Assembly: GCF_011745365.1 (NCBI RefSeq)
Contig: NW_024468912.1
Location: 744,001 to 808,000 of the forward strand
DNA from: Cryphonectria parasitica EP155
Taxonomy: Eukaryota > Ascomycota > Sordariomycetes > Diaporthales > Cryphonectriaceae
Direction of reading: 5' to 3'
Length of the DNA stretch: 64,000 nt
Shown here: in pieces, positions 13,048 to 43,500 of the stretch
Numbering within the stretch: the stretch's first letter is position 1
Layout of the letters: each line of letters opens with the position of its first letter
Notes under the pieces: model-generated
Database searches by the model: none
What the model was told of the DNA's origin: nothing
The model's input: only the letters and a program-made list of their open reading frames with translations
Position numbers and translations under genes: made by a program

Positions 13048-13917
13048 TTACTTTTCCTGCTTCACCCATTCCTTGACATCGGGGTTCCATTGGTGCCTGG
13101 TGAGAGAAAGAGAACAATTAGCTTGCTGTACAACACAACGAATCTGCATTCTGAAAGGAACTTACCCTTGCCAGGTGGTGGTGACCAGACTCTTCTTGCC
13201 GTACTCCTCGACAAGGATATTATCAAAAGAGTAGGGCACAGTCGCAGTCACGCCCTCGAACTCGGTCTCGCGCATGGGGTAGAGCTGGGTGGTCTTGTAG
13301 CGGTGGTTGTTCTTGCAGGCCCAGATACCTGGTGCACGCTTGGGGTCACGCTCGGCGAGGCCGGTGATGTCGATGAACATGCCGTTGCTAGTGTCGATCC
13401 ACCGGGCGTCGATGACGTTCATACCGTTGCCGCGCTGGCGGTCGACGTGGTTGGGATTGACGTCGAGCAGGTAGACCTTGGTGCGCTCCTCACCAGTGGT
13501 CTCGTCGCGGTAGCGATACTCGTGCATGGTGCGGTTGTAGTGATCGCCGAGGTATTGTAGCGTGGCGGCGGTGACCTGGGTGTCGAGATCGTAGTCCCAA
13601 GGCATGATCTGGCCATTCCACCACCAGCCCAGGAGGGTACCGTGGGCGAGCCACGTCTCGACGCCCAGCGCGCGGAAGACAGTCAGGTAGCTGCGCACGA
13701 GGTTGCGCAGGTTGACGCGGTGCTCGTCGTAGCCCACCATGCCCTGGAAGTAGCGCTCGTCATAGTGGCCCAACTCGTCGTTGCCGCCAGGCTCGTGGAA
13801 GTACTTGCCATCGCCCTTCTTCTCGACCCGCCGCGGTTCGAGGATGCCGGGGAGGGCGAAGGCGAGGGTGGTAGACGCGAGAGAGGCGACGAGGAGGATC
13901 GCTGTTGTCGGCTTCAT
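13048..13917 (-). CDS. Secreted LicD-family protein (Mnn4-like phosphotransferase-type domain)
   Basis: Exons 13917-13166 and 13096-13048 with a 69-nt intron (GTAAGT donor, CCAG acceptor), total 266 aa. It begins with a signal peptide (MKPTTAILLVASLASTTLA). The LicD signature lies at about residues 88-112: AHGTLLGWWWNGQ followed by MPWDYDLDTQ with the clustered acidic residues. LicD domains act in phosphorylcholine transfer in bacteria and in mannosyl-phosphate transfer in fungi (Mnn4 group). The signal peptide implies action in the secretory pathway, consistent with modifying wall or secreted glycans (inference). The second exon encodes only about 16 residues (…WNPDVKEWVKQEK), so the C-terminus is the least certain part. 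Confidence 0.85.
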
Positions 13918-16900
13918 GGTTGAGAAGATGTGGAGATTGTGTAATCAGAGACAAGAATAAGTCTTTTGTTTTGTGGTGTATGTGTGCAGGTCGTAGACAC
14001 ACATACACACACACACACACGAGAGACGAAAGATGAGCGTGGCCTGATGGCCGGGAGTTGGAAGTTGGTTGGGGGGGCGGAGAAGAGGATATCAGCTGTT
14101 TCGGGCGCACAAAGGAAGATGACTTTGTTGCGTCTTTGTCTGTCTTGTCTTTGTCTCTCCTGACGGTAACGGTTTGGCGATCGTTATCCTTTTCCTCGAG
14201 GACACCTTTGGGTCGAAGGAGGAGGAAGTGGTGGTGGTGTGTGTTTGTGTCAGAGACAAAATTGTTTTAGAAACCGAGACCAGTCAAGGTCACAGAGGAG
14301 GATTGAAGGTGGGCGCTTATGGTCGGCGGGAGCGGAGTGAGACGGTCTTGGGGTGCGTAATCAGACTGGGTCTGGGTCAGGGCCGTAGGGAGGAGAGAAG
14401 ATAGATGATGACACTTTTTTTTCTTCCAAGTCGTTCTGTTTGATGTTCTGAGGGGGTAGAGGGGCCAAGAGGTCTGGTCTCCTGCTGGTCTGTGGTCAGG
14501 GCAGTGGTGACGATGCGGTGTGAGGTGGTCGCGTGACGTCGACTGGTGAAAGACGAGATGCAGACGGGACGAACGGAGGCCAACCAACGGCAGCAGATTT
14601 GGAGATGCCTTTGTCTTGGAGAAGGGCTCGGGATGGTCGAAGTCGGGTTGCTGGAGGTAAGCAAAATGGAAATGCCAGACAAAAAGCTGGATATACAGCT
14701 ATTGTCCTACAGTGAATGGCAGGATAGCGAAATAAAAAAGAAGATCAAATGGGCACACGACCACTCGACGGAATGTTGGGGCGAGGCGGAGGGGGGCGGA
14801 GGAGGAGGAGGGTACGTACTATGGTAGCAAGGCTCGTGGGGTCCAAGGACCAGGTCCACGTCGGCCAAGTACGTACCAAAGAAGGGAGAAGGCCGCCATC
14901 AGGTTCTGACAGGGGCACACTATAAGGAGGTGATGGGGCCTGTGGACCCACTGCCGGGCAGGGGATGAGCGCCAGGAATTGCGCAAGTCAAATCTCGATT
15001 GAGTTCGTGCGTTTTACAGTGGACGGCGACGACAAATCACACACGTAGACAGAGTACTATGTCTAAGCAAGTTACTAGTAGATTGGCCAATCTGATTGAT
15101 AGGCAAAGAAATAAAAAGGAGGGGCGGCAACATTGGGGTGGCTGAGAGACGAGCAGCCCGGATGGTGGTGGTGTTCGAGGAGGATTCAAAAAGTACTACA
15201 GGGAAAATGGGGCTGAAGGGAAAGAGAGAGAGAGAGAGAGAGGACAAAGGAGACGGCGTCCACATGATTGTGTTCCCATTGCATATCAAGTAGACATTGC
15301 AAAAAGGTACGTGCCCACAATACGTACCATTTACTCATCATGGTACATTCATAGTGCGCTGTAGGCGTCGCGTGAGCAATTTCCAAATGCCGTCCCTTCC
15401 GTACGCCGATGGCTGCCAGGGTTCTTTTCTCCCTCGTTGTGTGCTTACGACCTAGTAGCCACACCACCAATCCAAGATTGCTACATTGATGATGTTATCT
15501 CTTCCCCTGCTCTGCCCTGCTCTCCTAGCCCTCTGCAGCCCTTCCCGCGCCTCCTAAATAAAAACGTTACACATAGCACGCAAACACTTCTTGGCCTTGG
15601 CACTGCGACTTACCAGCCCTTCAGTTTGGACTAACACTTGTTTGATACCCAGCTTTCTGCTCGCGTGACTATGTGATGTCCATCTGCGGAGACTACCGTG
15701 TCGTATATTTTTAGAGAGAAAGAGAGCGATAATGGTAGCAAACTCCTCACGACGGGATGATAATGAGCAGAAAAAGTAGAGCAAAGATAAAGGGGCATGG
15801 AACCTGACCTCGGCATAAGGTCAAGGCTCGGGTATAATTCTGGGAATTGACTCGTGGTTTTGTCTATTGATTACCCCCCCCCCCTTTCCATGCGTCTCCT
15901 AGTTTTCTCTCTTGCTGCAAACAAGGACCAACGATGTTCGTGTCTTGCAGGACCACCATCACGACACTATTAGGATCTGACGTCTCACTGCCCTTGCCTA
16001 CTTCTGTAGGACCATTGAAACTGCAGTCAACTATTCCCACATCTCCTGCGTGTCTTGCGATTGAGTAGCAAAGGTCAGGGAGACAGTGAATTTGCGGGAA
16101 ACAGTATGGGGTGTACTAACGAAAACCCACCACAGTGGCGCATGGGCGGCGTGCGAAGATGATGACGGCAGCGCCCCAAACCGCCCACAACATTAGCCTC
16201 AAACGCAGCACCAGACGACAGGTCAAACATATCGATAAAAAATTTAAAAAACTGAACTGGACGCGCGGCCCACAGCCTACGGTGTCATTGGCATGGCCCC
16301 CCATGACACTATATCCCTGAACCCTGCGCCACTTCGAAGGATGCGGGGCAGACCGAGAGCCAGGAGCCAATCATGGCTTTTTGTGTTGCGTACTCTGGGA
16401 CTAGACACTTTGAACTTGTCTGTGCATAGCGCTATGTATAGCAGGGCTAGCAGGGTGATGCTGCGGTGTGGTCGGCGGTCGGTGGTCGGTGGTCCATGCC
16501 AAAGGGCCCTGAGCTACCAGCTGCCACTACCAAGCTTTTTTTTCCTGGCGCCCTGTGGTCCCTGGCGCAACGGGCACCACACAAGCCCTGGCAGGCCGCA
16601 AGCTTAATGGGAACGAACCGAACGTTGCCACAACATCTACAGTATATAGTAGCATCTGGTACCCCCATCTGCCATCGAGGCCACCCCTTGCCCAAGACGA
16701 CGAACGACAAATCGGCATCCGACGTCCCCTAGACGTTCGCAAGCCCACGGTTTTTTTTTTTAACAAGATTCTCCACCTCTCGTGGCTCGTGGTAGAGCTG
16801 CATTGAACCACATATACCACAATGTAGTGCTACAGTGCTAGTGGTAGCATGTTACGACTGACTTGATTGTACTATGTATGGTAAGTATGGGCTGTACTAT

Positions 16901-24514: not shown

Positions 24515-26220
24515 TCGCACATCAAGACCTTGAAGTTGCAGGATGAGGCAACCAAATGCTCCAAATCATGAGCAAGCGGACTTAGAGCTACACGAGAGGG
24601 GAAAAGCCTCTTGTTAATTACATTGCACTAAAGTAAGAAGAGAAAGCCGGAGGAAAACCACGAGGCCGAAATACCTAAGGCTATCAACAGACCAGGCTAA
24701 GTATCTATATAGGCTGACTAGCGGCGCCGTGCACATGCACCAACTGGCCCTTGTAAAAAGCTCAGTGTATGAACCACGATCATTACCTTGTCCTTGTTTC
24801 TTGGTACTTGTACAGCATTTTTTGCTCTTAAAGTTGATGCTTGATAACTCCAAAGCATGCCAATAGTACGTGTATTTATAGTATGTCTACAGTAGGACAA
24901 TCTGGCCGTAAACCTTTGTCCTGTGGCAATTGGTCTTTTGATCCGCCTCCGTAGAGCACGTCGAGATACCTGCCGAAATGCCCGGCAACCTCGAGCATGT
25001 CTTCCAGTTCCGTCTATGGGAGTGCCGGCATCCTCCACTCGGCGTACTGGCATGTTGTCGTGATAGCGTTCCGTGTTTGTCTCCCTTTTGTTCTTTCGTC
25101 TGTCAACTCCTTCACATGGTTATGTGGATCCGATATGATTATTAGTCAATGAGTCCTCAAACTTTACCCATCTTTTACCGAGAAAAGAAAGGGAAGAAAG
25201 AAGAAGAAGAAAAAAGTGGACCGCCTCATTCCGAAGCACAACGCACGCTCTCAGCTGTGGGCGTGTTGCCTGTTCCCGGCCTCCATACAACAACAGACGA
25301 GACCATTCCTTTTATCTTTGATGAGATAGGTGCTTGCTTCTGTTGCCAACTGGTCGCTCATTAGAGTTTGAATAAATTCTTTCGCTGTGTGAGCCATACT
25401 TGAACTTCTTGAACGCCTCCTCATTTCCACTGTTGTCAAACCCTTTGATTGTAGGTGAAAGCAGGAGCTCGAACAACTTCTCCGGAAGCATATTGAACGT
25501 GGAAAACTTCAAGCCTATTGGTATGGACACTCCTGACCTGACGTGCATCTTCTTCAACATTTTCTTTCCTGGTGTCCTTGGTGCCAGAGCTAGAATTCCT
25601 TCTGTTTCCTGATGCGGCCTCGTAGACGGCTATCCTTGCCTTGAAAATTGATCAATGTCAATATCTCAGTGCGGCATGGAAACGCTCTAGCATTGGACTC
25701 AAAGTTTCTCACTGACCATTCTATTGGATGCCTCTGCAGTGCCACAGAGGAAAGTCTGAGACTTTCAGTTGAGAATATCAAAGGAAGACTAAGAGGCGAG
25801 CCAGAAGGCATGGGGGAATATTATTAAAAACTCTCTAAGGCATTAGGGTTGAAGGAAAACAAGAAATGAAAGACAACAAGAAAGATAGAGGAAGGGAAAA
25901 GAAAGAGGAAATGGCGTGCTGGGGGGGGGGGGAGATCACGTCGAGATTGATCACTTGAGCATGGTTTCAAGTCAACTCACCACAGAAGGTGACAAGATCA
26001 TGTGACTCAGATGGATAGATGCTTCATTTTTGAATTGCATATGAATTCCTTGCTCAGCCACGTAAAATCTGAAAGGCAGCTTGAATTATTCCGAGACTTC
26101 AAAATATTGCTGAAGGCGCTGAACTGCCTGTCCTCTATTGATCATGACACAGCCAAGCAATGTCATGAACGCTCTTCTTCCCTGTATTGCATTCTCTCAA
26201 TCAAAGACGGAAAGGAGTTA
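24515..26220. other. AT-richer spacer, no supported gene
   Basis: Minus-strand frames at 25312-25560 and 25590-25811 have no shared splice solution and no motif. A G run lies at about 25921-25932 and another just downstream of the oxidase's fifth exon (26355-26366). Confidence 0.4.
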
Positions 26221-27586
26221 TCAAGGGATCTCGGGCAGCACGCCTTCCGGTGTCCTCATATAATCTAAAGGTAGTTCCTCGGCAGGTGGAGCCTTTGTAT
26301 GCACACATTTCCATTAGATACGGTGTTGTCTTACACAAAAGGAAAATAAGAAGGGGGGGGGGGGGGTGCGGCGTTACCTGTCTCTCCTCAGCCCACGCCC
26401 TGATCTCATCATAGTTCTTACACGTGTGCTCCGTGTTGAAGTCCGGAAACGCCTTGGCATCTTGCTGGTCATACCACACCTGGCCTAGCATGCCCGTGTC
26501 GACATTGCACATCAATACTTGACGTATTGTGTCGAGGCAGTGTGCTAGAGTTGAGGAAAGAAGCAAGTTGACAGAAAATGGTCAGCTTTGATGCCTCCTG
26601 ATTGTAACTTTTTTTGTGGTGGATGGGAATGGAATGTTGCACACTTACACACGTGAAGCCGTAGGATATAGTCTTCATTTGCAAACGCATGCATTCCCAT
26701 GGCCTTATAGTGGTCATAATTGTAATAGAGCGACTTTCGCAGGAGGTTCTGGAGATCAAAGAGAAAGAGCATGGCATTTCACGCGTTAGAGAAGGGTCTT
26801 GATAACCTTGACACATTGGGCTGGCTGGCAAAAACTTACAAGACAGTGGAGATGGTGTAATCCCTCGACGTTGACAAAGAAGCCACCGCCATACTTCTCG
26901 GCCCTCTGCACATGCGCGGAGGTCAGGCCACTCATGCGACCCTCCTCATCAGATATGATAGCGGCTCGGTCTGTAGAAGAAATAGGGTCACTTAGATGTA
27001 TCCTCTCGTCCCGAACAAACTTGCCAGAGATGAACGAAAGGGGAAAGTACGGATATTTTCATATGTGACGTACAGTCTACTCCGAGAGCTTCCCACGCGG
27101 CATCCACCTCGGGACCGGCTCCTTGCCGGTAGATGTCCTCTTTCATGAGGGACCCGTTGAATAGCTGTGTATCGTATTTCACATCCACGTCCTGAATCAC
27201 AGGCGCTGGAAAGAGAGGAGAAGAGTCAGTATTCTTGCAGAAGCTAAACACCTCGAGAATACACACACAGGGAGGCTGTCGAACTTACAGTGTTTCGCCG
27301 TATACTCGGCACAGCCAGCGTCCCAGTCAGCAAATCGGCCACGCACAAACGCACCCACACAGGCACCCAGGATGCCGGTGCAGAGGAGAACGCCCACGAT
27401 GAGGAGTGGTGTGCGGAGGAGATGATCTCTCTTGCCTCTCGACGGCCGAGAGTTATCGTTGAGCATTGGAAGGTCTTCCTCCTCGCTGTTGATACTGTCT
27501 GCATAGCAGGCGGCGGCGTTGAGGGGTTGCGACTCTGCGTCTGTAGGGTCGGACATCATCTTTTGTTGCTTTATCAGTGAGGACAT
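26221..27586 (-). CDS. UstYa-family (DUF3328) oxidase
   Basis: Six exons on the minus strand: 27586-27289, 27205-27074, 26970-26840, 26748-26649, 26544-26378 and 26292-26221. All junctions are GT-AG with matching phases; total 299 aa. Order: acidic cytosolic N-terminus, one transmembrane helix at residues 61-81 (LLIVGVLLCTGILGACVGAF), then a luminal DUF3328 domain. That domain has the two family HxxHC motifs, HHLHC at 182-186 and HVSHC at 219-223, and a typical ending PLDYMRTPEGVLPEIP. UstYa-family proteins catalyse oxidative cyclisation and related oxidations in fungal secondary metabolism, notably of ribosomal dikaritin peptides. The gene is divergent to the Tyr-repeat precursor gene, which suggests that protein as substrate (inference). 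An orphan role in another pathway is possible. Confidence 0.88.
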
Positions 27587-29265
27587 GTTTGGAGTTTGGT
27601 GGGATTTCTGAAAAAACTTGTGTTTTCTGTCCTGGTATTGTTGCTTGCTTGATGGCTATTATTCCTAAGGAGAAGGTTTGTTGCAGTGCAAAGGGGGAAG
27701 GGGTCGATAGCAAGTTGAGGAGCTGGACAAAAGGATGTTTCGTTGCGCACTTCCTTCAAAAAGTCTCAGACTTTACGCAAAGTCAATAGTTTCCTATCCA
27801 CAAGCTCGAAACTTAAAATCTCTTCGTTATTACTGAACTGCTCGGTCAACTCTCTCCCGTGAGACAGTCGTATAAAGGGACACAAAAAAAATGAGAGACA
27901 AATGATGCATCACAGCCCGTCTCGATCTTTATCTAGCCCTTCATCCGCCACCAACTTGGATCAACACCAAGAAAACCAAGGCTATCACGAGAGCAGTTGT
28001 TCCGGATGCGACAAAGTATCTTCCTGCACAGTCGGGCCAAAGATACCCGAGACCCTCACGATGCTGAGTCTAGCAAGGCGCCGGCTCTCGCGCCAGTCGT
28101 TTGCAATATTTAGACTTGACATGTCTTGGGCCTCGTGGAGGAGACACATCTCAGCTGCGTTTGGACTAAGCTGGTATCACCCCGCAAACTACTACCACCA
28201 GACATCGGCAGTTGCTTTGTCTTCCCCACGTTTTGGGTCAAGACGATGCTGCGTAGTAAGGAGTAGTGGGAAGACGGTCTGGCGATAGCACCTCGCCGGC
28301 GCCGTTGCTAAATCTGAGACACGGCAGAGGCATCGCGTGGGAGCCTTGCACGTTTTGGCCCCAGCTGCCAAGCAGTCGGGTCCTCAGGTCGGTTGAACGG
28401 AGTCCCGTTCGAGAAATTCAAACCTTTCTCGGTTTGGTGTCGTCCCTGATGCATGCTTATTTGTTTACTAACTCTTGTCTAGTCTCAAGTCACGTCACAT
28501 AACAGCACAACTAGCACACATCACATCCCGAGTGAAAAGGGAGCGAGCACGTGGGCTGTCAATCGTTTCGTCCTTCCTTTCCGCCCATGCGATTGCGCCA
28601 GCGATTGCGCCAGCGATGGCTTGCCCAGATCATCGGGCTCGTCTGGTGTCAATCATTGATGCTGGTCGTTACGGAATTGAGCCGCACGGTAACTAGACAG
28701 TTGAACTGCCGCAAGCGGGTTGTCCGTCATCTCAGGGTCCACAGCCTTGGGAATCGTAGATTTACATGGATACGGTAAACACTCTCTCTTTTGGTCTACT
28801 ACACACATGCTCTCTGTTTGCCTCCCGCTTCGCTTCGTCACTCATCCGTCTCGTGCCATCATCGTGGAGAAGAAGAATATACAAAAGCGGAAAGAAAGGA
28901 GCCAGTACTGGACTTGCGTCACTTAGCCCGACCTGGGTCCGGCCAGGTGGATCAGCTAGAGACATGCTGGTGACGATGACGGCGAAGAGACAGAGATAGA
29001 GATGAATAGAGACAGACAGATGCAGCGAGTATCCGGGTCAAGAGAGACCGACATGTGAGGCTGTCTCATGATCTCATACATGGCGTCTCGAATATAAAAG
29101 GATGGGCTGCCGTCCAGATGAAGCTGAGGGAAAGGGTTGATCATTCTCCATCCAACAGAACAACCCTCGCCCAATCCTCCAAGATTCTCACTCAAGACCA
29201 ACACAAGATCATCATCTTCTTTTATTACACAGACCAAAGTGTCTTCTCATTCTTGACCTTCCACA
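27587..29265. promoter_or_regulatory. Divergent promoter region between UstYa oxidase and Tyr-repeat precursor
   Basis: About 1.7 kb between two divergent start codons. It contains a 12-bp tandem duplication (GATTGCGCCAGC) near 28590-28613. No exact ATCWGATAA iron-GATA motif was found, unlike the siderophore spacers. A 128-codon plus-strand frame at 27902-28288 shows no motif and is not called. Confidence 0.5.
29093..29099 (+). promoter_or_regulatory. TATA box of the Tyr-repeat precursor gene
   Basis: TATAAAA about 167 bp upstream of the ATG at 29266, followed by a CA/CT-rich leader (CATTCTCCATCC, CAACACAAGATCATC) typical of strongly expressed fungal 5' UTRs. Confidence 0.55.
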
Positions 29266-30185
29266 ATGAAGACCTCCGCCGTACTCCTCGCCACTGCATC
29301 CTTGGCCTTAGCCAAGCCCATCGCTCAGACCATCCCTCAGTTGGACGAGGTTGATGTTGCTGCCCTCGACGTCCTGGACGCTGACCTCCAGCTCGCCAAA
29401 GGTCTGAACGATCCCAATGCGGTCAAGGCTAGGTACGTTGATAACTGGTCCCCCCTCCCCTCTCCCCCTTTTTGCTTTTCTGCCCTTGTCTCGGGGGGAA
29501 AAAAAGAGAAAGACAGGATCTGACCAGCACCACCACAACAGGGCCTTCAAGTCCAAGCGCCAGGTACCCACACTGGCCATCGACGTTCCCGTCGTCGACA
29601 CCATTGCTCAGGACGTCGGAATCCCCGAGAACGGTCCCGACCTCATCGTCAGGTAATTATATCAAGTCCTAGGCCGAGGGAGGAGAAATGTCATCAAAAA
29701 CCAAAAAAGAAGAAGAAAAAAACCCCCCCAAGAAAGAGACATGGCTGACCTCGTGATTTCCCAACAGAGATGATGCAGCTGGCTACACTGAATACGGCGC
29801 CTACGGCGACTACACCGACTACCCACCCGCCGAGGATGGTTACGGCCAGTACGGTGACTACGGCATCTACCCCCCTCAAAAGCGAGCGCCGCAGACCGAC
29901 GACTCTGTTGCCGACTACGGCGACTATGGCACCTACGGCACGTACGACAACTACCCCGTGCCCGAGGGTGGCTATGCGCTGTACGGCGACTACGGCCAGT
30001 ACCCCCGACAGGCCGGGCGTGCCGTGAGGGCGAGACGCGCTGCTGCAAAGCCCAGACAGGCTGCTAGGAAGGCGAAGCGTGATGGCTATGTCAGCTATGG
30101 GCAATACGATGGCGCCGGAGAGAACCTGCCTTCTTACGGGCAGTATACTGGTTACGGCACGTATCCCCCCATTGAGGATAATTAG
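29266..30185 (+). CDS. Secreted tyrosine-repeat precursor with Kex2-type sites (dikaritin-like candidate)
   Basis: Exons 29266-29432, 29542-29652 and 29768-30185, GT-AG introns with matching phases, total 231 aa. A signal peptide (MKTSAVLLATASLALA) is followed by a ~75-residue pro-region. Residues 94-231 hold six blocks with Tyr at every third position: GYTEYGAYGDYTDYPP (98-113), GYGQYGDYGIYPP (117-129), DYGDYGTYGTYDNYPV (142-157), GYALYGDYGQYPR (161-173), GYVSYGQY (199-206) and SYGQYTGYGTYPP (215-227). Dibasic sites KR61-62, KR131-132, RR182-183 and KR196-197 separate segments, as expected for Kex2 processing. Signal peptide plus repeats plus dibasic sites plus an adjacent UstYa gene fits a dikaritin-type RiPP precursor. 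A structural, wall-crosslinking Tyr/Gly-rich protein is the main alternative. The family is not recognised beyond this logic. Confidence 0.8.
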
Positions 30186-30833
30186 TAGCAATGCGACCTG
30201 AAGGATCTATTGGTTTGGGAAGTGTTATTACTGGGTAATTGCTTGCTGGGATAATTCAGTTTTGATTTTCATCGATTGTGTCGCAAGAGGACTTAATGAA
30301 GTGGCAAGGGAGCTTCTTTACCTATTTACAATTTTTCAGTTAATGTGTTGAAGGTTTGTTCGTCTGTGCAGGAAATTTAAGTACATTTGCAGTATTAGTC
30401 TAGTTTCTATTTATTTAGTTTCATCTAACTTGATCGCGTTCAGTGAAGCTTGTCAAAAGCGCTGTCTCATGCCTACCGTATGAGGTCTGACTTACTGTGT
30501 TGCGATTTTAACGAGTGACTATGATTACTTTGAGAGGAGACACATGTCTCAAGGCGATGGAAGAAAGATATTCACATTGATATGTTTCAAACAAATCACC
30601 ACTCACCATCTGATTCCCAGCCTCTCAACCCCCACCGTCGTATCGCTCTCAAAGGCCCGCAAAGTGGAATTGTCCCTTTTTATACATCACCTGGATCAAC
30701 AACAAATGGGCTTTGTGCCAGGCCAGCCTCTACTCTTCCTATCAAAGCTCGCCTTCAATTTTCGTCTGCTTCATCATATGATATCACAAACACAGGGCAG
30801 TCAGGTCTAGGCGTAGAAGTGAGTTTAAATGCG

Positions 30834-30996: not shown

Positions 30997-33900
30997 TCAC
31001 AACAAGATGCGCTGCCCATCCCCACCCTCAACAAGCTCCCGAACTGCCCCAACTAGCTCCCCAAGTACACCCTCCACAAACTCAAGATCCCTCTCACTTC
31101 CAACCACCCCAACTCGCAACTGGCCCTCCCGTACAAACGAAACTACCTTCAGAGGCTGAGGGCTATCCCCGTGCGGGTTCGAGATGGCTAGCTTAGCTTG
31201 ACCCCCAGCGAACGGCATCGAGTCTGTGTCATCCCAGTCCTGGTGGTGAACGATCGAGTCGAAGGTCCGCACCGTTGACGGCGACAACCACTGTGCCGCA
31301 CACTCCCTGGCCACCGTCTCGAATCCGACAAAGTCATACGCCGCAGATTCGGCACTCTGCCTCTGGACAAAGCTCAGCAGGTCGGCGGCCGTCCATCCAG
31401 ACACAAAAGAGACCCGAATGGGCGTCAGCTGGTAGCACGGCCCAATAACATTCTCGACACCCGCGGCACCGTTGACATCGATGCTACGGCCCGATGTGAC
31501 GCCGCCAAACGTCACGTCGGCAATGCCAAGGCGGCGCGCGAGGACCAGGGCCCAGCCCGCGGTGAGGAGGTTGGCGGTCGTGATGGCCTCCAGGGGCTGG
31601 AAGGATTCGATGGCGGCCTGTTCTCTGAAGACGCCCCTATCGCCGGGCTTGATGGACTGGCCGGGCAGCGAAGACAGCGTGGAATCTTTGAGCAGGTTTC
31701 GCCAGTAGCTGAGGGCCTTGGTTTGGGCGCGTTCGTCCTTGATCCGGGCTAAGTAGGTGGGGAAATGCTCGAAGTCGGTGGTGATCTTGCCTCCAGTATA
31801 CAGCGACTCCAGATCCTGAAGCAGTCTGGGGAGGGACATGCCGTCGTACTGAGAATGCGAGAGTCTTAACACGAGACATTGCTGGCTGTTATTTTTATCT
31901 GTGACGTGGAAGATCTTGAGGAACGGTGCCCCAAGTGGAATCTCGGATTCACTGTCCTCGGTACAGATGGCGGCGACAGCTTGGCTGAGATCCTCGTCAT
32001 CAGTCTGCTGCGTGATTAGAGGAGTGTCTAGCTCATCCAGGATAACCTGTAAGAAGGTGGACTCGTGCTCGATGAACACTGTGCGCAGAATGTCGTGGGC
32101 CTTGACCAGGTTCCTGCATGCCTGAAGGAGACGCTCTTGTTCCACATCGTCGCCGAGGTACAGCATAGTATACTGCACCGAAGTCCGCGGTGCGTCGACG
32201 GTCGTTCTTATGTCGAGCGCCTGAGAGTCCGTCACCGGTGCGGCGTCCTTGATCGACCAGGCCGAGCTGGCCAGTTTGGGCCGCACGAACTCGGACAAGA
32301 AATGGTCCACGTCCGGGACGCCACGCAGAGTCGAGAAAGGCTTGTATTGCAGCGTCTTTCCCGTCGAAGCCGCATTCACCTTCAATACTTTAGCTGCATC
32401 ACCAAGGCGCATGTGCTGGAAGACGTCGGCTACCGTCAATCCATGCCCCTGCGCGCGCAGGCCAGAGACCAACTTCATCACAAGCACCGAGTCACCTCCG
32501 AGGCGGAAGAAGTTGTCGTCAACGTCGATCTGCTCTGGGCGCATGCGGAGGAGTTGTGCCCATGAAGAGCGCAGGATGTCCTCGGCTGCCGTGAGGCTGC
32601 CCGGTACCAGGTCTGTCTCCCACGCCTTCTTGAATCCCTCGCGAAGCTGGCCGAGTACGTGCCGCGGGATTTTGGAGGCCAACTGCTTGAGAACGCTGCG
32701 GTCCACTTCTCTGTTGCTGTTGTTATTGCTCAGGGGAAGTCTGTCGACCACGACATAGGCAGAGGGCACAGAGCTTGACGGGAGGTCGTCTCGGATGAAC
32801 TTGTCGAGTTTCTTGAGGGCGACAGCGAGGCTGATGGGGACGTCGGCGGAGAGGCTCGTCGTAAAGCTGTCAGGATCCGACTCATCACAGCTGACCTCAT
32901 GCCTCATGAACATGACCTCTATGCTCTCTTCAGCAGAAGAAGGCGGCTGCTGCGGCTGCTGCTCAACAAAGATGACCAACTCTTGGTCCTTCTGCGCGTC
33001 ATCTCCCACCGAGGTCTCAAACACAGCAGCAGCAGCACGAACCGAGGGGGGCAGCAGTCTTGCGCAGTGTGCCTCGAGATCAGCGACGTTGACCGCATGT
33101 CCTGATACCGGGACAATATCATCCTTGCGGCCGACAAACACCAGAACGCCATCTGGCCGCAACTGCACAATATCACCCGTAGGTCGTACCTTGCCCGCCC
33201 GACCCACGCACTGAGAGCTTCCAGCCGCCAGCCAGGCCGGTGTATCCACCGCATCGCCTCCCGGAATGCACGAGCCTTCCAGCCAGAGCTCACCGGGACA
33301 GCCGATGGGCGACAGCATGGACGGGTTGCGCGGATCAACCACCCAGGGGACGACTATGCGAGGATACTCGGCTCCATTCTTGATGCTTGTGTCTGCTCGA
33401 AGGTGGCCTGTCGATTCGTCCAGAGAAAGCGGGGGAGTCTGATTCCAGCGCCAGATCTGGTCCAGCTCCGCCTGTGGTAGGTAAGACATCTCATCAATTC
33501 TCCTATCGAGACCCTGCGTCAACTGCACACAGGCCGTCTCCAACTGTGCCAGGACACGCTCCATCTGTGTGACCTCGACCAGGCTGCTATCGAAACTGGC
33601 GCAGACCCTGAAACCACCTTTCCGCAGCCCAAATGCCAGCATAAGCGGATAAGGGTTGAAATGAAGGGCCTCACGCACGGGGTCACCCAGCTCAAAGCCC
33701 AACTCGCCGCCCACGAGCTCAGGCTCTGGCTGGATCACCAGGCCCGTTGGCGCCTCGCACGCGTGTTGAGCGTCGACGCTGACCCTTCTGATGTACTGCA
33801 TGCCCATGTGTTGGTACGGGATGCGAGACGACATGACGTGCTGCACGCTCTGCAGATAGGACGCGACGGAGCTCGACTTGCTCAGGCGAATGCGAATGGG

Positions 33901-36900
33901 GATCGTTGCGTTTAGGGGTCCGAGAATGTCCTCGACGGCGGGAAGCGAGATATCGCGGCCAGTGAGGGTCTCGCCAAAGATGACATCGTCGCTGCCGCTG
34001 TATTGCGAGGCCACGAGGGCCCATGCGCCGCGGATTAGTGTCGCCATGGTGAAGGGCAGCCCGTCTACCGAGTCGAGACGTATTTGGCGCTCGACCATGG
34101 CATCCGGGGTTGGCAGGAAGTCTCTGGACGGAGTCCGTGGGAATTGTGGCCCCATGGCGTCCTGCAGCTCGGTCCGCCAGAAGTCTTGCATGGCGGCCTC
34201 GTCTGTGTCGCGAATCCATTGCACAAAGTTCTTCATCTGTGCTCTGGTTTGCGCTTGCGCCTCGACGGCTTGACCTTTCAGAGCCTCCACGACCATGTCA
34301 AGTATCAACGGCTCAGACCACCCATCATATTGCACATGATGGACAGTCCAGACCATGTACCGCTTGCCGTCCTTGGCGTCTTCGACAATGGCATACCGTG
34401 CCAGGCTCTGGCCCAGGTCCATCCTCTCGTTCCGGTCCTCCTCGAGGTACCTCGCCAGGTCCGTCGAGCGTCTCCAGTGGACCTTTTCCTTCAGCACGAC
34501 TTGCTGCAGGCCAGGGTCCTGCAGCTGGGCCACACGGGTGCGCAGGATCGGGTTTGCGGCGACGACCGCCTCCCAAGCCTGCTGCAGGGCGTCAAGGGAC
34601 AGGTGCGACGGCACACAGGCAATCCTCTGTGCGACATATGGCTCGCTCGACTTGAGTGAGAAGGTGACCAGCGACTCCTGCGTGGGAGTGCAAGGGTAGA
34701 TGTCCTCGACAGCTGCTGGATCCGTCCCGCAGGCCTGGGCCGCTTCGGCAGAGGCGCTTTCGACAGACTGTGAGATGAGGGAGAAGGGTGGTGTCTCCTT
34801 ACGAGTGTCCACTTCGCAGATACGGACCGTCTGGGCCATGGCGCCAAGTGTAGGGTGGCCAAATGTGCTGGTCACAGACAGTTCAAGGCCTCTCTCCCTG
34901 CATGCAGACACCAGCCGCATGGCCGCTACGGACTCGCCACCTAGCGCAAAAAAGTTGTCGTCTGGGTGGATTCCATCCTCGTCGAGCTTCAATACGAGGC
35001 TCCAGGCGTGCCGCAGGCGCCGTTCGAGACCGTTGAGCTCCCGATCCTCCCGAGCAGCCTTTGTGGTCGACGAGGTCTGGTCGAGCTTCTGCAGGTCGAC
35101 CGTTGCGCCGAACTGTCTAAGCCGCTTGCGATCTATCTTGCCCGAGATCAGGGTTGGGATATAGTTTGTCGGAATGTACGCGTTGGGCACCATGTATCGC
35201 GGTAGAACTTTACCCAGGTCCGCGTTCACTTTCGCCAGCGCCCCGTGCAGGTCATCCGAGAGCTCAGCAGCCGACAGGTCCTCTACTCCATTAACCTTTG
35301 CCTTATGAGAGACGAATGCCACGAGGGTTGGCTGCCCTGCAGATGCCTGCGGTGTGATGACCTCAGCGATCACATTGGTCCCGGAAGGCAGCCTGGCCTT
35401 GAGCTGGCTCTCGATCTCGCCGAGCTCGACGCGCTGCCCGCGCAGCTTGACCTGCGTGTCCTTTCGCCCGGCAAAGACGATGTCGCCCGAACCATCCGGA
35501 TCGTACATGCCCAGATCGCCCGTCTTGTACAAACGGCCAGTCCTGCCAGGGTGGCCATTGTGGCCCGCAAGGAGCCAAGGTGGATCGTGGATGAAGGCAG
35601 CAGCGGTCTTGTCAGGGTCGTTGAGGTAGCCTTGGCCCACGATGGGCCCTTCGACGAGCAGCTCACCCACCGCGCCGACGGGTAGGAGGATGTTGTGGTC
35701 GTTAGGATCGACGATCCACATGGCGGCGCCGTTGCCTGGGCCGATGGAGATGTAGTCCCTGCCTGTGGCGGCGCTGCTGTTGACGGTGCAGCCGATGGTG
35801 CACTCACAGGGCCCATAGCCGATGACAATCCTCGCGTCCTGGCCCCAGAGGTTGACGTCTCGAGGGGCAGACGCCTCGCCGCCGAGGCCAAGGGCACTTA
35901 GTGATGCGATGACGTCCTGGTCCAGGATGCGGGCTACGGAAGGGGTAATACCGGCGTAGTTGATGCGCATGTTACGCATCACACCGTTGATGTCGTTGAG
36001 ACGGTCTTCATCGGAGGGGATGCAAAGGCAACCGCCGTTCCCCAACGTCAGGAGCATGCTATCTATGCTGACATCGAAGGCGTAGGAGGCGAAGTCTAAA
36101 ACCCTCGACTCCTCTGAGTAGCCGACGGCCCTGGCGCGAGGAATCGCACTGCTGGTGTAGGTCTGGTGGGAAATCTTGACGCCTTTGGGGGTGCCCGTGC
36201 TGCCAGAGGTAAAGATGATGTACATCAAGGCGGTTGGGGGCACAGTTGGCAGCTCGATAGAGGAGGAGGCATGGGCATCAGCAGAGGATAGCCGGGCGAA
36301 TGCGTCGGCCTCCAGAACGAAACGCGTTCCAGTAGGCAAGATCTCCTCGGCCAGGTCCTTCTGCAGACGTGACGAAATCATGGTCCGGGCGTCAACCTGC
36401 TTGGCCATGTTCTGCAGGCGGGCCAGCGGGAGCGACGGGTCCATCATGACGATCGTCGCCCCCGCCTTCATGGTCGCGAGCACGGCAACGATGGTCCACC
36501 TCGACTTCTCAAAGCACAACGGGATAAAGTCGTGCAGCTGGACGCCAGAATCGTTGACTAGGGAGGCTGCCAGGAACGTGGAGTAGCGGTCCACCTCGCC
36601 GTAGGTCAAGGTACCATCCCAGGAGTCGATGGCCACCTTGTCAGGGTGCCGCTGGGCCTGATGGGCGACCATGTCCTGCATGCAGAAGGCATGGGTTGGG
36701 GGCAACTCATGACACCACCTCCATATCGAGTCCAGATCGAATGGGGTTGGGGCCATGCAGCTGTCAATGGTCACATCCGCAGGGCGGGAGATGCATATCC
36801 GCAGTATGTCAACTAGGGTCTCGATATGCCGCTCCACAGTATAGGGCAAGACTTTATCGCTGTACCATACCGGGCGAATTGCCAGGCGGTGACCCTCCTC

Positions 36901-37481
36901 GATTTGTACTTGAAGATGTATTGTGCCCTTTTAACGCCGTCATCGCAGTCAGTCATGGAGGATGGTAGGTATAGATTGATTCTTTGTTTCTCTTTTCTCT
37001 TGGAAAGAAAACAAGAAAATAAAAAATAAAAAGAAAAGGAAGAAAAGGAGAGTAAGCTACTCACTTGGTCAAGGGTACCCTCCAAATTCCGTGACAGCGA
37101 ACCTGTGCTTAGGAGCAGCGAATGGGAAGCTAGGCCGGCGGTCGTCGCAATGCGCTCGCTGACAGCTTTGGTGAACTCTTCCACGCTCTTGTTCAGGTTG
37201 AGGTCTGGTAACACATCATCTGTGGACAACTGGTTGTGCTTCTCCTTCTGCTGCCGCTGCTGTTGCTCAACGCCATTTTCGTTATCATCATCATTACCGT
37301 AGGCCCACTCAAAAGAAGCAGACCTGTCTTCCCTTGTGCGGATGAGGGCAATAAGCCATGATGATAGCAGGACATCTTCTCTTAGGGAAGCAAGACCGGC
37401 AATCTTGAAGCATCTGGTGCCGTCGCCGCCATTGGCCAGGCCCGGGCCCGCATCAACATCATCGACAAAGACGGAACCCAT
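30997..37481 (-). CDS. sidD: Extracellular-siderophore NRPS, SidD/NPS6 type
   Basis: Exons 37481-37065 and 36927-30997 with a 137-nt intron (GTGAGT donor, AAAAG acceptor), about 2115 aa. Family members link anhydromevalonyl-N5-hydroxyornithine units into fusarinine-type siderophores (coprogen-type in NPS6 fungi). Seen in order: a degenerate N-terminal segment; an adenylation domain with IIFTSGSTGTPKG (~res 376-388), YGPCECTIG and YKTGDLG; carrier 1 (DDNFFALGGESV, Ser ~803); condensation 1 (HHVQYDG, ~1002); a truncated second adenylation remnant retaining GELWLEG and FVGRKDD but no A3 core; carrier 2 (DDNFFRLGGDSV, Ser ~1619); condensation 2 with SHSQYDG instead of HHxxxDG (~1829). This order and length match SidD/NPS6. 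Its upstream region is shared with the SidJ-type esterase gene. Confidence 0.92.
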
Positions 37482-39130
37482 GGTTTCGAATGAATGGTTT
37501 GGTTCAGACCAACGGAACCCTGAAGAGGGCTGATCTGATCCGATCTGATGTGATAAGATAATCACAATAAAAATATATATAAGATGTGCCCACACCACAT
37601 GGAGAAGGGAGGAGAAGAGGAGTGCCGGATATGCAAGAGAGGCTGGCTGCAGCTGCACGATCAGCTCAATCATGCAGCATGAGCGATGGTCATGAGGTCA
37701 TGAAGCGGTAATGATGTGTTGGTTGGTTCCTGCGTGCCTGCCTGCCTGTCTCTTTCTTTTCTCTGTTGCTCTTCCTCCGGATTCCGGCTGATCAGAGTCG
37801 AGAGGAAAGACCAACCCTCTTCCCTTGTGACATAAGCCTTGGGAGAGTGGGTATGTGTAGTTTTGTGTGGACCGCGGTAAGAAGTCACATCACACACTGG
37901 GTCGGTCTCCTTCCTTGAGAAATAATGACAACCTCCGCGAGTCGGGACCCATACCAAGAGCCCCCCCAACCTGACAAATGGTCGCGTGGGTGACCATACT
38001 ATGGTCCTTACCACAACAGGTTTGTTTTTGAGACCCATGTTGGCCCCCCTCCTTCTCTTCCTGCTTCTCATCGAAACATAGTGTGGGCTAGGATGGTACT
38101 GTGTTGTCGTGTGGTACTGTGGTGGATGGAGCGACCGTCGGAAAGTGGCTTGCCTTCCGTGTCTGGAAGGCGGAACGGGGGAAGGGAGGTCGTCAGTGAG
38201 GATTCGATTAAGCGAGGAGGTAAGATGGGATACATGCATCAGAACACACACAGTGCACACAGTGCACATAATATAGAACGAACAGTATACATCTGAACCT
38301 CACTGTGGTGCCCATGAAAGAACGCGAGGCGTAGACTATAGAATTGTGGTACCTTAAGTGATCAGCTGCAGGGTTCTCATTTTTCTCTTCTTTTCTCATT
38401 TTTTTCTTCTTCCAAATTAATCTTTCCTTTCCCTTCCCCTCTTTCAAGGTACGTACCTCACAGTGCATTGCAAAATCTGATTAGATTGATCAGATAAGAT
38501 TATCTAAAAAAAAATTGGTTCAGCCGGAGGGGACCTCGGCTGGTCATCCCACCCATGCACCCACCACTTCGGTCATTATTACCTACCTTACTCGTAATAG
38601 CTCCAAACGTGACCCAAGCTTTTTCCCATTTTTCTTTCTGTTCCTATGGGGGGGAAGATGAACAGCATCACCACCAGCAAAAAGGAAAAAATCTTCTCTT
38701 GTGGCTTGCGGGCGTCGGCACGAGGCTCGCACGAGGTGACATGGCAAATGGATCTTGGGTGCTCCGTCCAAAGCAGTAGGTCTCCACAAAGGCGTTAATG
38801 CAAGCGCAGATCGAAAACAGGGTAGACGTTGCATGGCACACACTCCCAACAAGGTTATGAGTCCCTTGATGGATCGCTCAATCCCCGATCACGGCGGTTC
38901 TCTTACGAATTTCATGACGAAAGACAGTGGACGTGTAGAGTTTGGGATTTCTCATCTTATGACGACGAGGCCGACACGACACCACGACACCATTTCTGAC
39001 TGACAAACAGACTGACAAAGACAGAGGGAAGCCAAGCCTTGACGACTCCCTAGAGATTTATTTTCCAGTGAATCCCATAGGTTATCAGCAGTGAGGGTTG
39101 GCTATTCAACTGGGCAACGGTCCATTCACC
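37482..39130. promoter_or_regulatory. Divergent promoter between sidD and sidJ
   Basis: About 1.65 kb with no supported gene. GATA motifs cluster just upstream of the NRPS start (GTGATAAGATAATC at about 37549-37562, beside repeated GATCTGAT). An exact ATCAGATAA occurs further up at 38489-38497. Confidence 0.65.
38489..38497 (+). promoter_or_regulatory. SreA-type GATA site (ATCAGATAA)
   Basis: Exact match to ATCWGATAA, the motif linked to the iron-responsive GATA repressor SreA/SRE, in the sidD/sidJ divergent promoter. A second GATTATCT overlaps immediately downstream, giving a short inverted GATA pair. Confidence 0.6.
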
Positions 39131-40358
39131 ATGTCCAAGTACTCCAAGTTCTGGCCCAAGGGCGGCATGAGCGGTATCCTTCACCATTACGTTAGTATTA
39201 TAGCCAAACATCTCTTGTGAAAAAGTCACATGTGGATGGCATCAAGCCTCCTCCTTCGTGTGACGATGCCTTTCAATTCCTCTGCCCACTATGCTTTTCA
39301 AGCCCGCTGATGACTTGGCGTAGACCGAAACCCTCGTCACCTTCGAGTACACCACAACTGGCGCCTCTGCCCCTCGCAAACCACACAGCATCCTCTTCAT
39401 CGGCGGCCTAGGCGACGGTCTGGCCTCCACCTCCTACACAGCCGACCTCATCCGCGCGCTCCAGCCCACAGAATGGTCCCTCTTCACCCTCAACTTGACC
39501 TCCGCAGGCCAGGCATGGGGCGTAGGCCACCTAGACCGTGACACAGACGAGATCGCCACCTGCTTGCGCTACATCCAAGAATACAAGACCGCCAAGTTTG
39601 GCGGAGGAGAGGATGACGCAAGCAGCAGTAGCAGCACCAACAAAATTGTCCTCATGGGCCACTCCACAGGCAGCCAGTGCGTCCTGCACTACCTCTACCG
39701 GCCCAACCCGCACGCAGGTCCTATCCCCTCCTTCGACCCATGGCTCGAGCACGTCCAGCGCCCAGCCATCGACGGCGCCATCGCGCAGGCGCCCGTGTCA
39801 GACCGAGAGGCAATCCTGTGGGTGCTCAAACACGGCATCGGCGACAGGACGCCCGAGACATGCCAAAAGGCCTACGACGAGATGGTCGCGATCGCGCGCG
39901 CGGCGGAGAAGAACGGCGAGCTGGACGGGACCCTCCTGCCTCTTGCGCTGACGGACCGCATCTACCCGCCCAACACGCCCATCAGCTGCCGGCGCTTCCT
40001 GAGCCTCGTGAGCCCAGACAGCCCTGCCGCGCCTGGCGAGGACGACCTGTTCAGCTCGGACCTCTCGGACGAGCTGCTTGCCAAGACGTTTGGCATGGTG
40101 CACCAGGGTGGCCTGCTGAAGGGGAAGTTAGCGATGCTTCACTCGGGTGCGGACCAGGCTGTGCCGGACTGGGTGGACAAGGAGAAGCTGCTGGGCCGAT
40201 GGGGCGCCGCGGCGGATCACAATGGAAAGTATCAGGTCTGGGACAAGGAGCACAGTGGTATAATTCCTAATGCCTCTCATGCCTTGAGCAATGATGATCA
40301 GGCAGAACCCAGGCAGTGGCTGTGTGCCAGAGTACTCAGTTTTCTGAAGACCGTATAA
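39131..40358 (+). CDS. sidJ: Fusarinine-type siderophore esterase, SidJ-like alpha/beta hydrolase
   Basis: Exons 39131-39190 and 39324-40358. The 133-nt intron has GTTAGT, a TGATGAC branch region and a TAG acceptor; total 364 aa. It starts MSKYSKFWPKGGMSGILHHY, typical of the DUF1749 family. The nucleophile elbow GHSTGS places Ser at ~134. A late DQAVPDW segment and an ASHAL motif provide candidate Asp and His. SidJ hydrolyses fusarinine-type siderophores or their breakdown products inside the cell to release iron. The gene is divergent to the NRPS gene and shares its GATA-containing promoter, which supports the assignment. A general lipase/esterase of the same fold is the weaker alternative. 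Confidence 0.85.
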
Positions 40359-40564: not shown

Positions 40565-43500
40565 TCACTGCGCCACCGTCTGATGCATCACATTCGCCCG
40601 ATAACTCTCCGATCTCTCCAGCAGCTCCTCATGTGTGCCAGCATCCACACACTGTCCCGCCTCAATCAAAAAGATACGGTCCGCCTTCCGAATAGTGTGC
40701 AGGCGATGAGCAATAGCAATCACAGTGATATCCTTGGCCGCCCTCTCCAAGCCATCCTGCAGCAGCCTCTCCGACTCCGCATCTAAAGCACTGGTCGGCT
40801 CGTCCAGGATGAGGAGCTGCGGCCGCCGCACGAGCGCCCGTGCAATCGATAGCCTCTGCTTCTGCCCGCCCGAGAATTGGTTCCCATTCGGCCCACATAG
40901 CGTATCGTACCCCTCCGGCAGCGCGACAATTACCTCGTGGATATTCGCTAGCCTGCACGCCTCCTCGATCTCTTCCTGCGTGGCCTCGTGACCCGGCCGC
41001 GCCCCTAGCCCGATGTTGAACTTGATGCTGCCCTCGAAGAGGACGCTCTCCTGCGGGACGAGGGCGATGTCGTCGCGGAAGGACATATCTCTTACTTTAG
41101 TCACGTCGAGGCCGTTGATGAGGATGGACCCGATGCTGGGCGTGTAGAGGCGCTCGACCAGGGAGATGACGGTGGACTTGCCTGCGCCGCTGGGGCCGAC
41201 AAGCGCACAAAATTGGCCTGGGCGGATATCGAGGCTTAGTCCGCTGAGTACTTTCACGTCGGGACGGGCTGGGTAGGAGAACTGCACGTCGCGGAACTGG
41301 ACGCTGGCGGCTCCTGAGGACGTGGTAAGGGAAGAGGACTTGATTCCATGCGCTGCCTCGACGTCCTTCTCGCCCATGGGCGACAATGACGAAGTCGTGT
41401 GCGTGGAAAAGGACTCGTCGATACGTCCTTGCATCTTGTCTGAGCCAATCTCGATGAGACCCAGAATCCGAGCCGACGCCGCGCGTGCGCTGGACAGCTC
41501 CGGTGCGAGCGCAAACATCTGGCTAAAGAGCAGTGCGCTAACCAGCAGTGAGAACACCACGATGAGGAACTGCGTCTGGGTATAATTGCCGGCAATGATC
41601 TGCTTCGAGCCCCACCAGTATGCCAGCGCATTGACGCAGTTACCAAGGAAGTAGGTGATGGCCTGGCAGAGACTCGCCTGCAGCGTGACTTTGAGGGTCT
41701 CCTGGCGGGGTCCCTTGAGGGATCGTCGGTAGTCACTCAGTATTTCCTGCTCCAGGGACAGAGAGGCGACCGTCTTGATGGAGGTGATGGCCTCTGTGCC
41801 GATGTCGACCGATTTTGTATAGGCGGTCTCGTGCTTCTCCTCAAACTTGCCCAGAACTCGTAATTCCATCATGCCAGCTCCGAGAAGAAGCGGGATCAAC
41901 GAAAGACAGACAAGGGCTATTCTCCAGGCGATGATATGCGTCAGGATGATGGCGGCCACGAGGTTCACGGTAATCGAAATCATGGTTCCAATGACGGAGC
42001 CGCTCAGACCAGCCAGCGCATTGCCATCTCTGGTGATGTACGACAGAAGCATGGCTGGTGTGCGGTTCTTGGACTGGTGCCACTGCAGGTCTTGTTCAAA
42101 GAGAGATCGGAAGGACAAAACTCGGACCGAGTAGACAATGTGTTCAGAGATCCATCCAAACCCAGACCAGCTCATGATATTGGCGAAGAACTCGATAATC
42201 GCGAGCACGAAGAACATCAGGCCAAAAAAGTCACCTGCGTCGCGGATGCTGCTGGCACTCTTGCACACATTCAGACTTCCCACAGTGTTGCCAAAGATGA
42301 CAGCCTCGCCAGAGAAGGCTCCGCCGACAACGATCGAACCTAGGAGCGCGATGCAGATGACAAGAGCGTGGGGCCTCAGAGCTGGTGCGTAACCTTTCAT
42401 CAGGGCCCATAGCGACTTGGATGGGGTCTCGGGCTCTTCCTCCTCCTCTCCTCCCTCTTCTCCTGGCTCGGCTGAGGCCGACTTCTCAGTTATACTCTTG
42501 TGGTCGTCGTCTTCCGAGGAACTGGCCTTGCTTTCGACAAGAGTTTCTGTCACCGAGGCTACGACAGCGTCCTTCTTTGGCCCTTCTGCCTCCGAATCCT
42601 TGGTCGATGTATGTCCCAGTGACTGCATCTTAATCAGCTCGGCATATGACCCATTTTTGGCCATTAGCTCGGCATGGTTTCCCTGTTCCACGACATGGCC
42701 CTTGTGCATGACAATAATGTTATCCGCGCCGGTAATGGTTGAGAGGCGGTGGGCAATGGTGAGCACCGTCCTGCCGGTGGCGATGTTGTTGATGGCCTTG
42801 GTAATACGCTGCTCGCTCCTCGAATCTAGGGCAGCCGTGGCCTCATCCATAATGAGGACGGCAGGGTCCTTCACGAGAGCTCGTGCCACGGCCACTCGCT
42901 GCTTCTGTCCACCACTGACCAACCGTCCCATGGAGCCGACAAGAGTGGCATAGCCATATTGCAACCCGTTAATAAAGGTGTCTGCATCTGCGAGCATGGC
43001 CGCGTGCTGGACCAGGTTGACGATCTCGACAATTTCCGAGCCACGCTTCTCCGCGGCTGCCATGAGGGTCTGTCCCTCTCTGATCTCGCTCGCCAAGTCG
43101 GACAGGTCAGGCCCTAGAAGTCTCTCCTTCAGGTGTGCGTGCTTGGGATTGCTAGAGTTGACCAAGCCGTGCGCAATATTCTCCAAGATCGAGCGGTCCA
43201 GAAGTGAAGGCTCCTGCTGCACCAGACTAACAAAACTTCGTAAGTCGCGCGTGTTGAGGTCATGAAGGTCGTGCCCATCGAACAACACCTTCCCCTCCAC
43301 GGGATCATACAGCCTCAAGGCTAGGCTGGCGATGGTCGACTTGCCGCTGCCTGACAGACCGATAATGGCTGTGTGCTTCTTGGGCGGAATGCTGATGCTC
43401 ACGTGGTCCAGGACGGTGATCTCTGGCCTGGAGGGATAGACGAAGGAGACATCCTTGAGCTCAAAGCCGCCTTGGGCTTGTTCGAGACGAGTTCCTGCGT

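Follow-up and report, generated by a model that had tools for sequence, protein, structure and literature searches.

Most of what is known of UstYa-type oxidases (DUF3328 proteins) comes from scattered clusters for toxins and other secondary metabolites. In the text of a genome survey of Kex2-processed repeat proteins (KEPs), 1,758 of 7,878 such proteins are encoded no more than 15 genes away from a DUF3328 gene, most often directly beside it, and Tyr is present in 65.6% of the repeats of the DUF3328-linked KEPs as compared with 38.2% of those of the others (Umemura 2020, PMC7329392). The same text prints repeat lengths of 13, 14 and 8 residues for ustiloxin, phomopsin and asperipin-2a, reports one DUF3328 for asperipin-2a and describes the ecological roles of cyclic KEP products in fungi as poorly understood. 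As to the enzymes, passages of PMC12435403 describe CctR, a DUF3328 protein, as a binuclear copper enzyme with inactive His/Cys mutants, built from a disordered cytosolic N-terminus, a membrane helix and a luminal domain. Here we analyze a 64,000-nucleotide stretch of the chestnut-blight fungus Cryphonectria parasitica EP155 (G000:C4:744001-808000 of a 43.8 Mb genome in 17 contigs; referred to below as the window, with all positions counted along it) in which the gene for a UstYa oxidase and that for a putatively secreted Tyr-repeat precursor are direct neighbors, arranged head-to-head with their start codons 1,679 bp apart. There is good support for classing this pair as a KEP next to a UstYa oxidase.

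The gene models were rebuilt using GT..AG introns. The oxidase gene (26221..27586, minus strand) comprises six exons (27586-27289, 27205-27074, 26970-26840, 26748-26649, 26544-26378 and 26292-26221) encoding 299 amino acids, and the precursor gene (29266..30185, plus strand) three exons (29266-29432, 29542-29652 and 29768-30185) encoding 231. Each rebuilt protein is 100% identical over 100% of its length to a C. parasitica EP155 database entry, M406DRAFT_355917 for the oxidase and M406DRAFT_321942 for the precursor. Of four open reading frames (ORFs) compared with Pfam, two within the divergent intergenic region (27587..29265), at 27863-28285 (+) and 28762-29037 (-), and two that flank the pair, at 25993-26268 (+) and 30484-30810 (+), none has a match at E≤0.1.

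Residues 52-275 of the oxidase match PF11807 with E 2.1e-55 and 188.4 bits, vs a curated cut-off of 25, and the two HxxHC motifs, HHLHC (H182-C186) and HVSHC (H219-C223), are both intact; by domain and motifs the protein is thus a member of the UstYa/DUF3328 family, as a first-pass annotation of this DNA had stated. A database search returned 531 proteins at E≤1e-10, and our statements about the oxidase clade rest on the best 120 of these, that is, the oxidase itself and 119 relatives that are 47-69% identical to it. Two HxxHC motifs are present in 117 of the 120 sequences. In the alignment W137 is invariant, and conservation reaches 99-100% at each of H182, H185, C186, H219, H222, C223, C233, H260 and C262. 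The closest paralogue within the same genome is 37% identical over 175 residues. Judged by sequence, the oxidase belongs to an unusually conserved clade, a feature that the first-pass annotation had overlooked. The structural model is weak overall (mean predicted local distance difference test score, pLDDT, of 63) and there are no sequence relatives in the PDB at E≤1; a long helix is predicted near the N-terminus (residues 54-85, with a block mean pLDDT of 95 for residues 61-80 and a stretch that is hydrophobic by eye), and the motif helices are modeled at 179-193 and at 214-233, the latter with low confidence. As modeled, this layout agrees with the CctR topology, and by analogy with CctR the oxidation carried out by the enzyme may well be copper dependent.

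The precursor begins with a putative signal peptide, clear by inspection alone (residues 1-16, MKTSAVLLATASLALA, 29266..29313, plus strand, as for all precursor features), and contains 25 Tyr and no Cys. Dibasic sites are found at KR 61-62 (29555..29560), KR 131-132, RR 182-183, RK 193-194 and KR 196-197 (30075..30080), and there are three Tyr-rich units. Unit 1 (residues 94-132, 29769..29885, DDAAGYTEYGAYGDYTDYPPAEDGYGQYGDYGIYPPQKR) is closed by the KR at 131-132; unit 2 (containing ...VADYGDYGTYGTYDNYPVPEGGYALYGDYGQYPR...) runs on into a basic tail, and the two together (residues 133-183, 29886..30038) end with the RR at 182-183; and unit 3 (residues 198-231, 30081..30182, DGYVSYGQYDGAGENLPSYGQYTGYGTYPPIEDN), which includes the sequence GAGENLPSY (30111-30137), follows the KR at 196-197. 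There are 13 YGxY and 19 YxxY patterns; shuffling the sequence 1000 times gave 4.4 YxxY on average and never more than 10. Units 1 and 2 align with a score of 120, vs 34.7 ± 7.3 for shuffled sequences, and none of 2000 shuffles reaches the score either for this pair or for units 1 and 3; the alignment of units 2 and 3 is weaker, with 28 of 2000 shuffles reaching the score. Both sets of shuffles led us to reject a mere composition effect as the source of the Tyr pattern, and they bear out, along with the four KR/RR sites and the putative signal peptide seen by eye, the earlier description of a secreted repeat protein with dibasic sites and Tyr blocks placed head-to-head with the oxidase gene. 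Pfam contains no family that matches the precursor at E≤1, hence neither MF_alpha nor MF_alpha_N, and an alpha-type pheromone precursor was rejected on this domain test. A search of the genome returned no paralogue of the precursor.

Relatives of the precursor were collected by a single-sequence search, which gave 5 proteins, and by a profile search, which gave 31 (both counts including the precursor); P0003 came from the former only, for a set of 32. The YGxY pattern is common to the precursor and the 31 further proteins, whose named sources are Geoglossum simile, G. umbratile, Xylographa parallela, X. vitiligo, Amylocarpus encephaloides, Fusarium keratoplasticum and two Pseudogymnoascus strains. 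KR-closed units are found in P0003, P0002 and P0135. Those of P0003 are short and very like the ones of C. parasitica (...HTEYGDYGEYTNYPR, ...VADYGDYGTYDNYKR and ...HTEYGDYGEYTNYKR; pairwise E 7e-18), and P0135, from F. keratoplasticum, shares GYxSYGxYxGAGENLPSY with the C. parasitica precursor, including the GAGENLPSY of unit 3. Neither five family peptide strings nor a stand-in pattern had a match in the open-access literature searched; the YGxY type is unnamed in the available text of the KEP surveys PMC7329392 and PMC6339444, whose figures or supplements may list it, and a word search of the available text of PMC7329392 for YGxY and YxxY gave no match. The sole match to Cryphonectria parasitica together with UstYa, in the text searched, was a Parastagonospora genome paper.

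How often would a gene be found next to a UstYa locus by chance? A search of the genome with the PF11807 profile gave 36 exon-level matches that we have grouped into 18 loci, so that, by our arithmetic, the regions within ±5 kb of these loci make up ∼0.4% of the 43.8 Mb. This adjacency, the UstYa domain with its conserved metal ligands, the significant Tyr repeats, the KR-closed relatives and the printed enrichment of DUF3328 genes and Tyr lead us to propose that oxidase and precursor form a minimal oxidative peptide-modification unit that releases Tyr-oxidized peptides after Kex2-type cleavage, a reading that we regard as reasonably likely. The oxidase probably oxidizes or links tyrosines of the precursor. 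In such a pathway the precursor would enter the secretory route by way of its putative signal peptide, and there, on the luminal side, its Tyr units would be the target of the presumably membrane-anchored UstYa protein, whose two HxxHC motifs would hold a binuclear copper site. Long (∼30-50 residue) Tyr-rich peptides carrying oxidized tyrosines would be set free by a Kex2-type protease cutting at KR/RR. The copper chemistry, the location in the secretory pathway and the Kex2 processing are all proposed by analogy with the respective families; C. parasitica does process at least one protein, cryparin, with Kex2, according to the text of PMC5048421. The most likely modification would be Tyr crosslinks within a peptide, at distances given by the YxxY spacing, and as to the bond itself, Tyr-Tyr or Tyr-backbone links at this spacing would be our guess.

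Several observations weigh against the proposed unit. The C. parasitica units are divergent, to the extent that the precursor was not flagged when exact repeats bounded by KR/RR were looked for, unit 3 runs to the C-terminus without a following dibasic site and none of the KR/RR sites is immediately preceded by Tyr. In 12 of the 31 relatives the C-terminus, by eye, consists of KR and a short amphipathic peptide, for example AIDFVKRLWS, that is absent in C. parasitica. The family itself derives from a single-sequence search that needs shared 5-residue words and from a profile search that scored 7,996 candidates and missed P0003, one of its own seeds. Gnomoniopsis (P0007), the nearest named relative on the oxidase side, has no precursor among the family matches, and none of the named precursor-bearing species other than C. 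parasitica is found among the best 120 of 531 oxidase matches. No relative was detected in viral_contigs (queries P0006 and A2), genome_contigs (A2) or plasmids (P0006), a null result that says little about fungal synteny because these collections are viral, prokaryotic or plasmid. Finally, UstYa enzymes also occur in nonribosomal peptide synthetase (NRPS) and polyketide pathways, as noted in the text of PMC12048977, and an NRPS gene is close by in the present case. The C-terminal peptide that follows KR (approximately A-I/V-x-F/W-V/I-K-x-L/I-W/F) was seen in P0002, P0004, P0126, P0127, P0130, P0133-P0136, P0145, P0148 and P0151, and it is possible that it constitutes a second released peptide in these 12 relatives.

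The strongest competing explanation is that Kex2 releases linear, unmodified secreted peptides from the precursor, much as for alpha-factor, and that the UstYa neighbor has another substrate. Acidic-Ala/Pro dipeptides after KR/RR, of the kind seen in alpha-factor precursors, are found in 20 of the 32 family members (the pattern is a loose one), and one UniRef name, truncated, begins 'Mating factor alp'. Moreover, 6,120 of the 7,878 KEPs in the text of PMC7329392 have no DUF3328 gene within 15 genes. However, that text places DUF3328 near none of 227 KEPs in the yeast-type factor groups and near 3 of 216 in the pheromone groups, and it assigns to C. parasitica another alpha-type pheromone precursor, Mf1/1. 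With, in addition, neither MF_alpha nor MF_alpha_N in the precursor and an adjacency expected so rarely by chance, we consider unmodified peptides unlikely.

Somewhat less probable still is that the Tyr protein is secreted whole and escapes cleavage, serving in the wall or matrix, where Tyr crosslinks made by the UstYa protein or a peroxidase would harden it. A Tyr-Gly-rich sequence with YxxY spacing would suit such a role, as would the AlphaFold model of the precursor, which is disordered and of low confidence (mean pLDDT 45.4, built on five rows), and the divergence of the units together with the missing Tyr before KR/RR in C. parasitica. Set against this, the protein lacks both Cys and a hydrophobic C-terminus of the glycosylphosphatidylinositol-anchor type (it ends PPIEDN, by eye), and KR/RR directly after Tyr is kept in 28 of the 32 family members, C. 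parasitica being one of the four exceptions.

The precursor is flanked on its far side by a SidD-type siderophore NRPS (31000..37697, minus strand), overlooked in the first-pass annotation, which by Pfam has SIDD_N, AMP-binding, PP-binding and Condensation domains in two open frames. It is convergent with the precursor gene, with its frame end ∼0.8 kb from the precursor stop, and past it are DUF1749 (39324-40355), ATP-binding cassette (ABC) transporter (40568-44669), enoyl-CoA hydratase (45990-46877) and GNAT acetyltransferase (47693-48754) genes and major facilitator superfamily (MFS) frames (52332-54161). From its gene content we take 31000-54161 to be a fusarinine or triacetylfusarinine C (TAFC)-type siderophore cluster, in which the DUF1749, enoyl-CoA hydratase and GNAT genes are presumably SidJ-like, SidH-like and SidF-like. 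The NRPS is probably a neighbor and not part of the oxidase-precursor pair. To our knowledge fusarinine biosynthesis needs no DUF3328 step, which counts against an involvement of the oxidase in the siderophore cluster. That the UstYa gene belongs to this cluster and modifies its product, in the manner that CctR hydroxylates a nonribosomal peptide in cyclochlorotine biosynthesis (text of PMC12435403), is very improbable despite the proximity of SidD and the genes that follow it, given that the precursor gene sits between UstYa and SidD and that, in the text of the siderophore literature, among the 15 papers listed of 103 matched, UstYa appears in none and DUF3328 in one, a whole-genome survey. 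Elsewhere in the window there are a hAT-family transposase domain (Dimer_Tnp_hAT, E 8e-26) in a 1005-codon open frame at 58115-61129 (-) and a LicD-family match (E 8e-26) in an open frame at 13165-13944 (-).

Returning to the oxidase-precursor unit, we have asked what the history of the oxidase suggests about its role. A FastTree phylogeny, midpoint-rooted, was read with order or class labels for 102 of the 120 sequences, assigned by us from the names shown (Niveomyces counted with Ophiostomatales); the 18 sequences without a usable name were left out. Hypocreales (42/42), Glomerellales (16/16), Ophiostomatales (5/5) and Magnaporthales (3/3) form one clade each. The Diaporthales are split, with Cryphonectria and Gnomoniopsis near the Leotiomycete-lichen group and the four Diaporthe sequences next to Ceratocystis in another part of the tree. 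Of the 12 Xylariales sequences no more than 6 fall into a single pure clade, 6 of the 8 Sordariales sequences make up the largest clade of that order, a Podospora sequence grouping with Xylaria, and neither Leotiomycetes nor Lecanoromycetes forms one clade. Pseudomassariella vexata, Xylariales sp. PMI_506 and Clonostachys byssicola have two sequences each. Because these splits and the doubled species argue against strict vertical descent, we limit ourselves to the statement, new here, that the tree, as computed from these sequences, largely, although not wholly, follows fungal orders. Comparison by eye of oxidase and precursor matches for those on one contig left the C. parasitica pair alone, i.e. 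the present locus. Both the F. keratoplasticum precursor NCS57_00017700 (6.64-Mb contig) and the Fusarium musae oxidase J7337_000208 (6.26-Mb contig) have low tag numbers, a weak lead and no evidence of adjacency, since the species differ.

Given this evolutionary pattern and the conservation of the oxidase, an endogenous peptide, developmental or signaling, is at least as likely as a lineage-specific toxin. We offer more tentatively, as a possibility that is itself rather doubtful, that throughout Pezizomycotina the YGxY precursors have long been paired with this oxidase clade, mostly by vertical inheritance, to yield long peptides with multiple Tyr crosslinks that serve as endogenous signals or structural factors; if so, oxidative chemistry of the UstYa type on ribosomally synthesized and post-translationally modified peptides (RiPPs) would be part of ordinary fungal biology and not of toxin clusters alone. 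The two-gene system, a conserved oxidase and a simple Tyr-repeat precursor, would provide a test both of how a copper enzyme would act on long multi-Tyr peptides and of peptide roles in development, and the YGxY units, GAGENLPSY and the KR sites provide a searchable family signature.

As a control we scanned the window and 9.9 kb around each of the 17 other UstYa loci for exact repeats between KR/RR sites. Clear KEPs were found at 2 of the 17 (L017 and L026, the latter flagged in incorrect frames and recognized on manual reading), a lower bound because the scan is blind to divergent repeats and did not flag the present precursor. At L017 (G000:C6:3364500-3374400) a KEP with six repeats like DENWNAAAWSNFVKSYVDGAEEAKR (6955-7428, +) is divergent from a UstYa match at C6:3369289-3369762 (-), and this is likely a separate UstYa-linked RiPP-type locus. 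At L026 (G000:C1:902500-912400) the UstYa match (C1:907132-907643) is accompanied, at a distance of ∼3 kb, by a di-His repeat protein (∼456-1682, -; EPHHQGKGKKNNGRDVEEIEAR, ∼13 full repeats), which resembles the HH-type KEPs that are linked to DUF3328 in the text of Umemura 2020 (PMC7329392). Dense UstYa exon matches at L024 (G000:C4:106500-116400) and L022 (C7:2269500-2279400) mark candidate clusters with several UstYa genes, as far as can be told from exon matches. The earlier view that the pair lacks a tyrosinase, a second UstY gene and a methyltransferase also holds within the reach of our searches: PF00264 gave nine tyrosinase exon matches in five loci genome-wide and, at the search sensitivity, none on contig C4; the next UstYa group on C4 is ∼656 kb away; and Pfam, in a survey that is not exhaustive, found no methyltransferase among the sequences taken from the window, namely two spliced proteins and 34 ORF stretches, of which one lies inside another.

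Among known systems the C. parasitica pair is closest to the KEPs of the ust-RiPS type, as the text of Umemura 2020 (PMC7329392) describes them, having in common with these a signal peptide (here putative, by eye), repeats set off by dibasic sites, Tyr-rich repeats and an adjacent DUF3328 gene; three Tyr units with Kex2 sites were found (one of the three unit comparisons being weak), and the DUF3328 gene, looked for within 15 genes, is the direct neighbor. Unlike the printed examples with their lengths of 13, 14 and 8, the C. parasitica units are ∼32 residues long, divergent and rich in Tyr at YxxY spacing. With the dikaritins (ustiloxin, phomopsin and asperipin-2a) the locus shares a UstYa oxidase and a secreted Tyr-containing precursor, and a single DUF3328 is also the case for asperipin-2a. 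It differs in that there is no conserved Y-x-I core, this pattern occurring once, as YGIY in unit 1, and being absent from units 2 and 3 by eye, and no tyrosinase match on the contig, where ustiloxin and phomopsin have the enzyme. Of the first-pass proposal of a dikaritin-type RiPP, then, the KEP beside UstYa stands on its Tyr units, KR/RR sites, KR-closed relatives and adjacency, and the label 'dikaritin' is only partly supported, and in its strict sense not supported, because of the long cores, the lack of a conserved Tyr-x-Ile and the lack of a tyrosinase match on the contig. On the enzyme side CctR of cyclochlorotine (text of PMC12435403) has the same domain, the HxxHC(x)nHxxHC motif and one N-terminal membrane helix (a predicted one in the C. 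parasitica oxidase), and the name 'Cyclochlorotine biosynthesis protein O', that of a further DUF3328 from the same cluster, is carried by two oxidase relatives among the best 120 of 531, P0074 and P0097; CctR acts on a nonribosomal peptide, however, and the C. parasitica substrate is probably a ribosomal one. For an endogenous, non-toxic role there is a precedent in POI2 of N. crassa, an ustiloxin-type KEP needed for sexual development, which is of the YxIx type according to the text of PMC7329392 and differs in this respect from the C. parasitica precursor.

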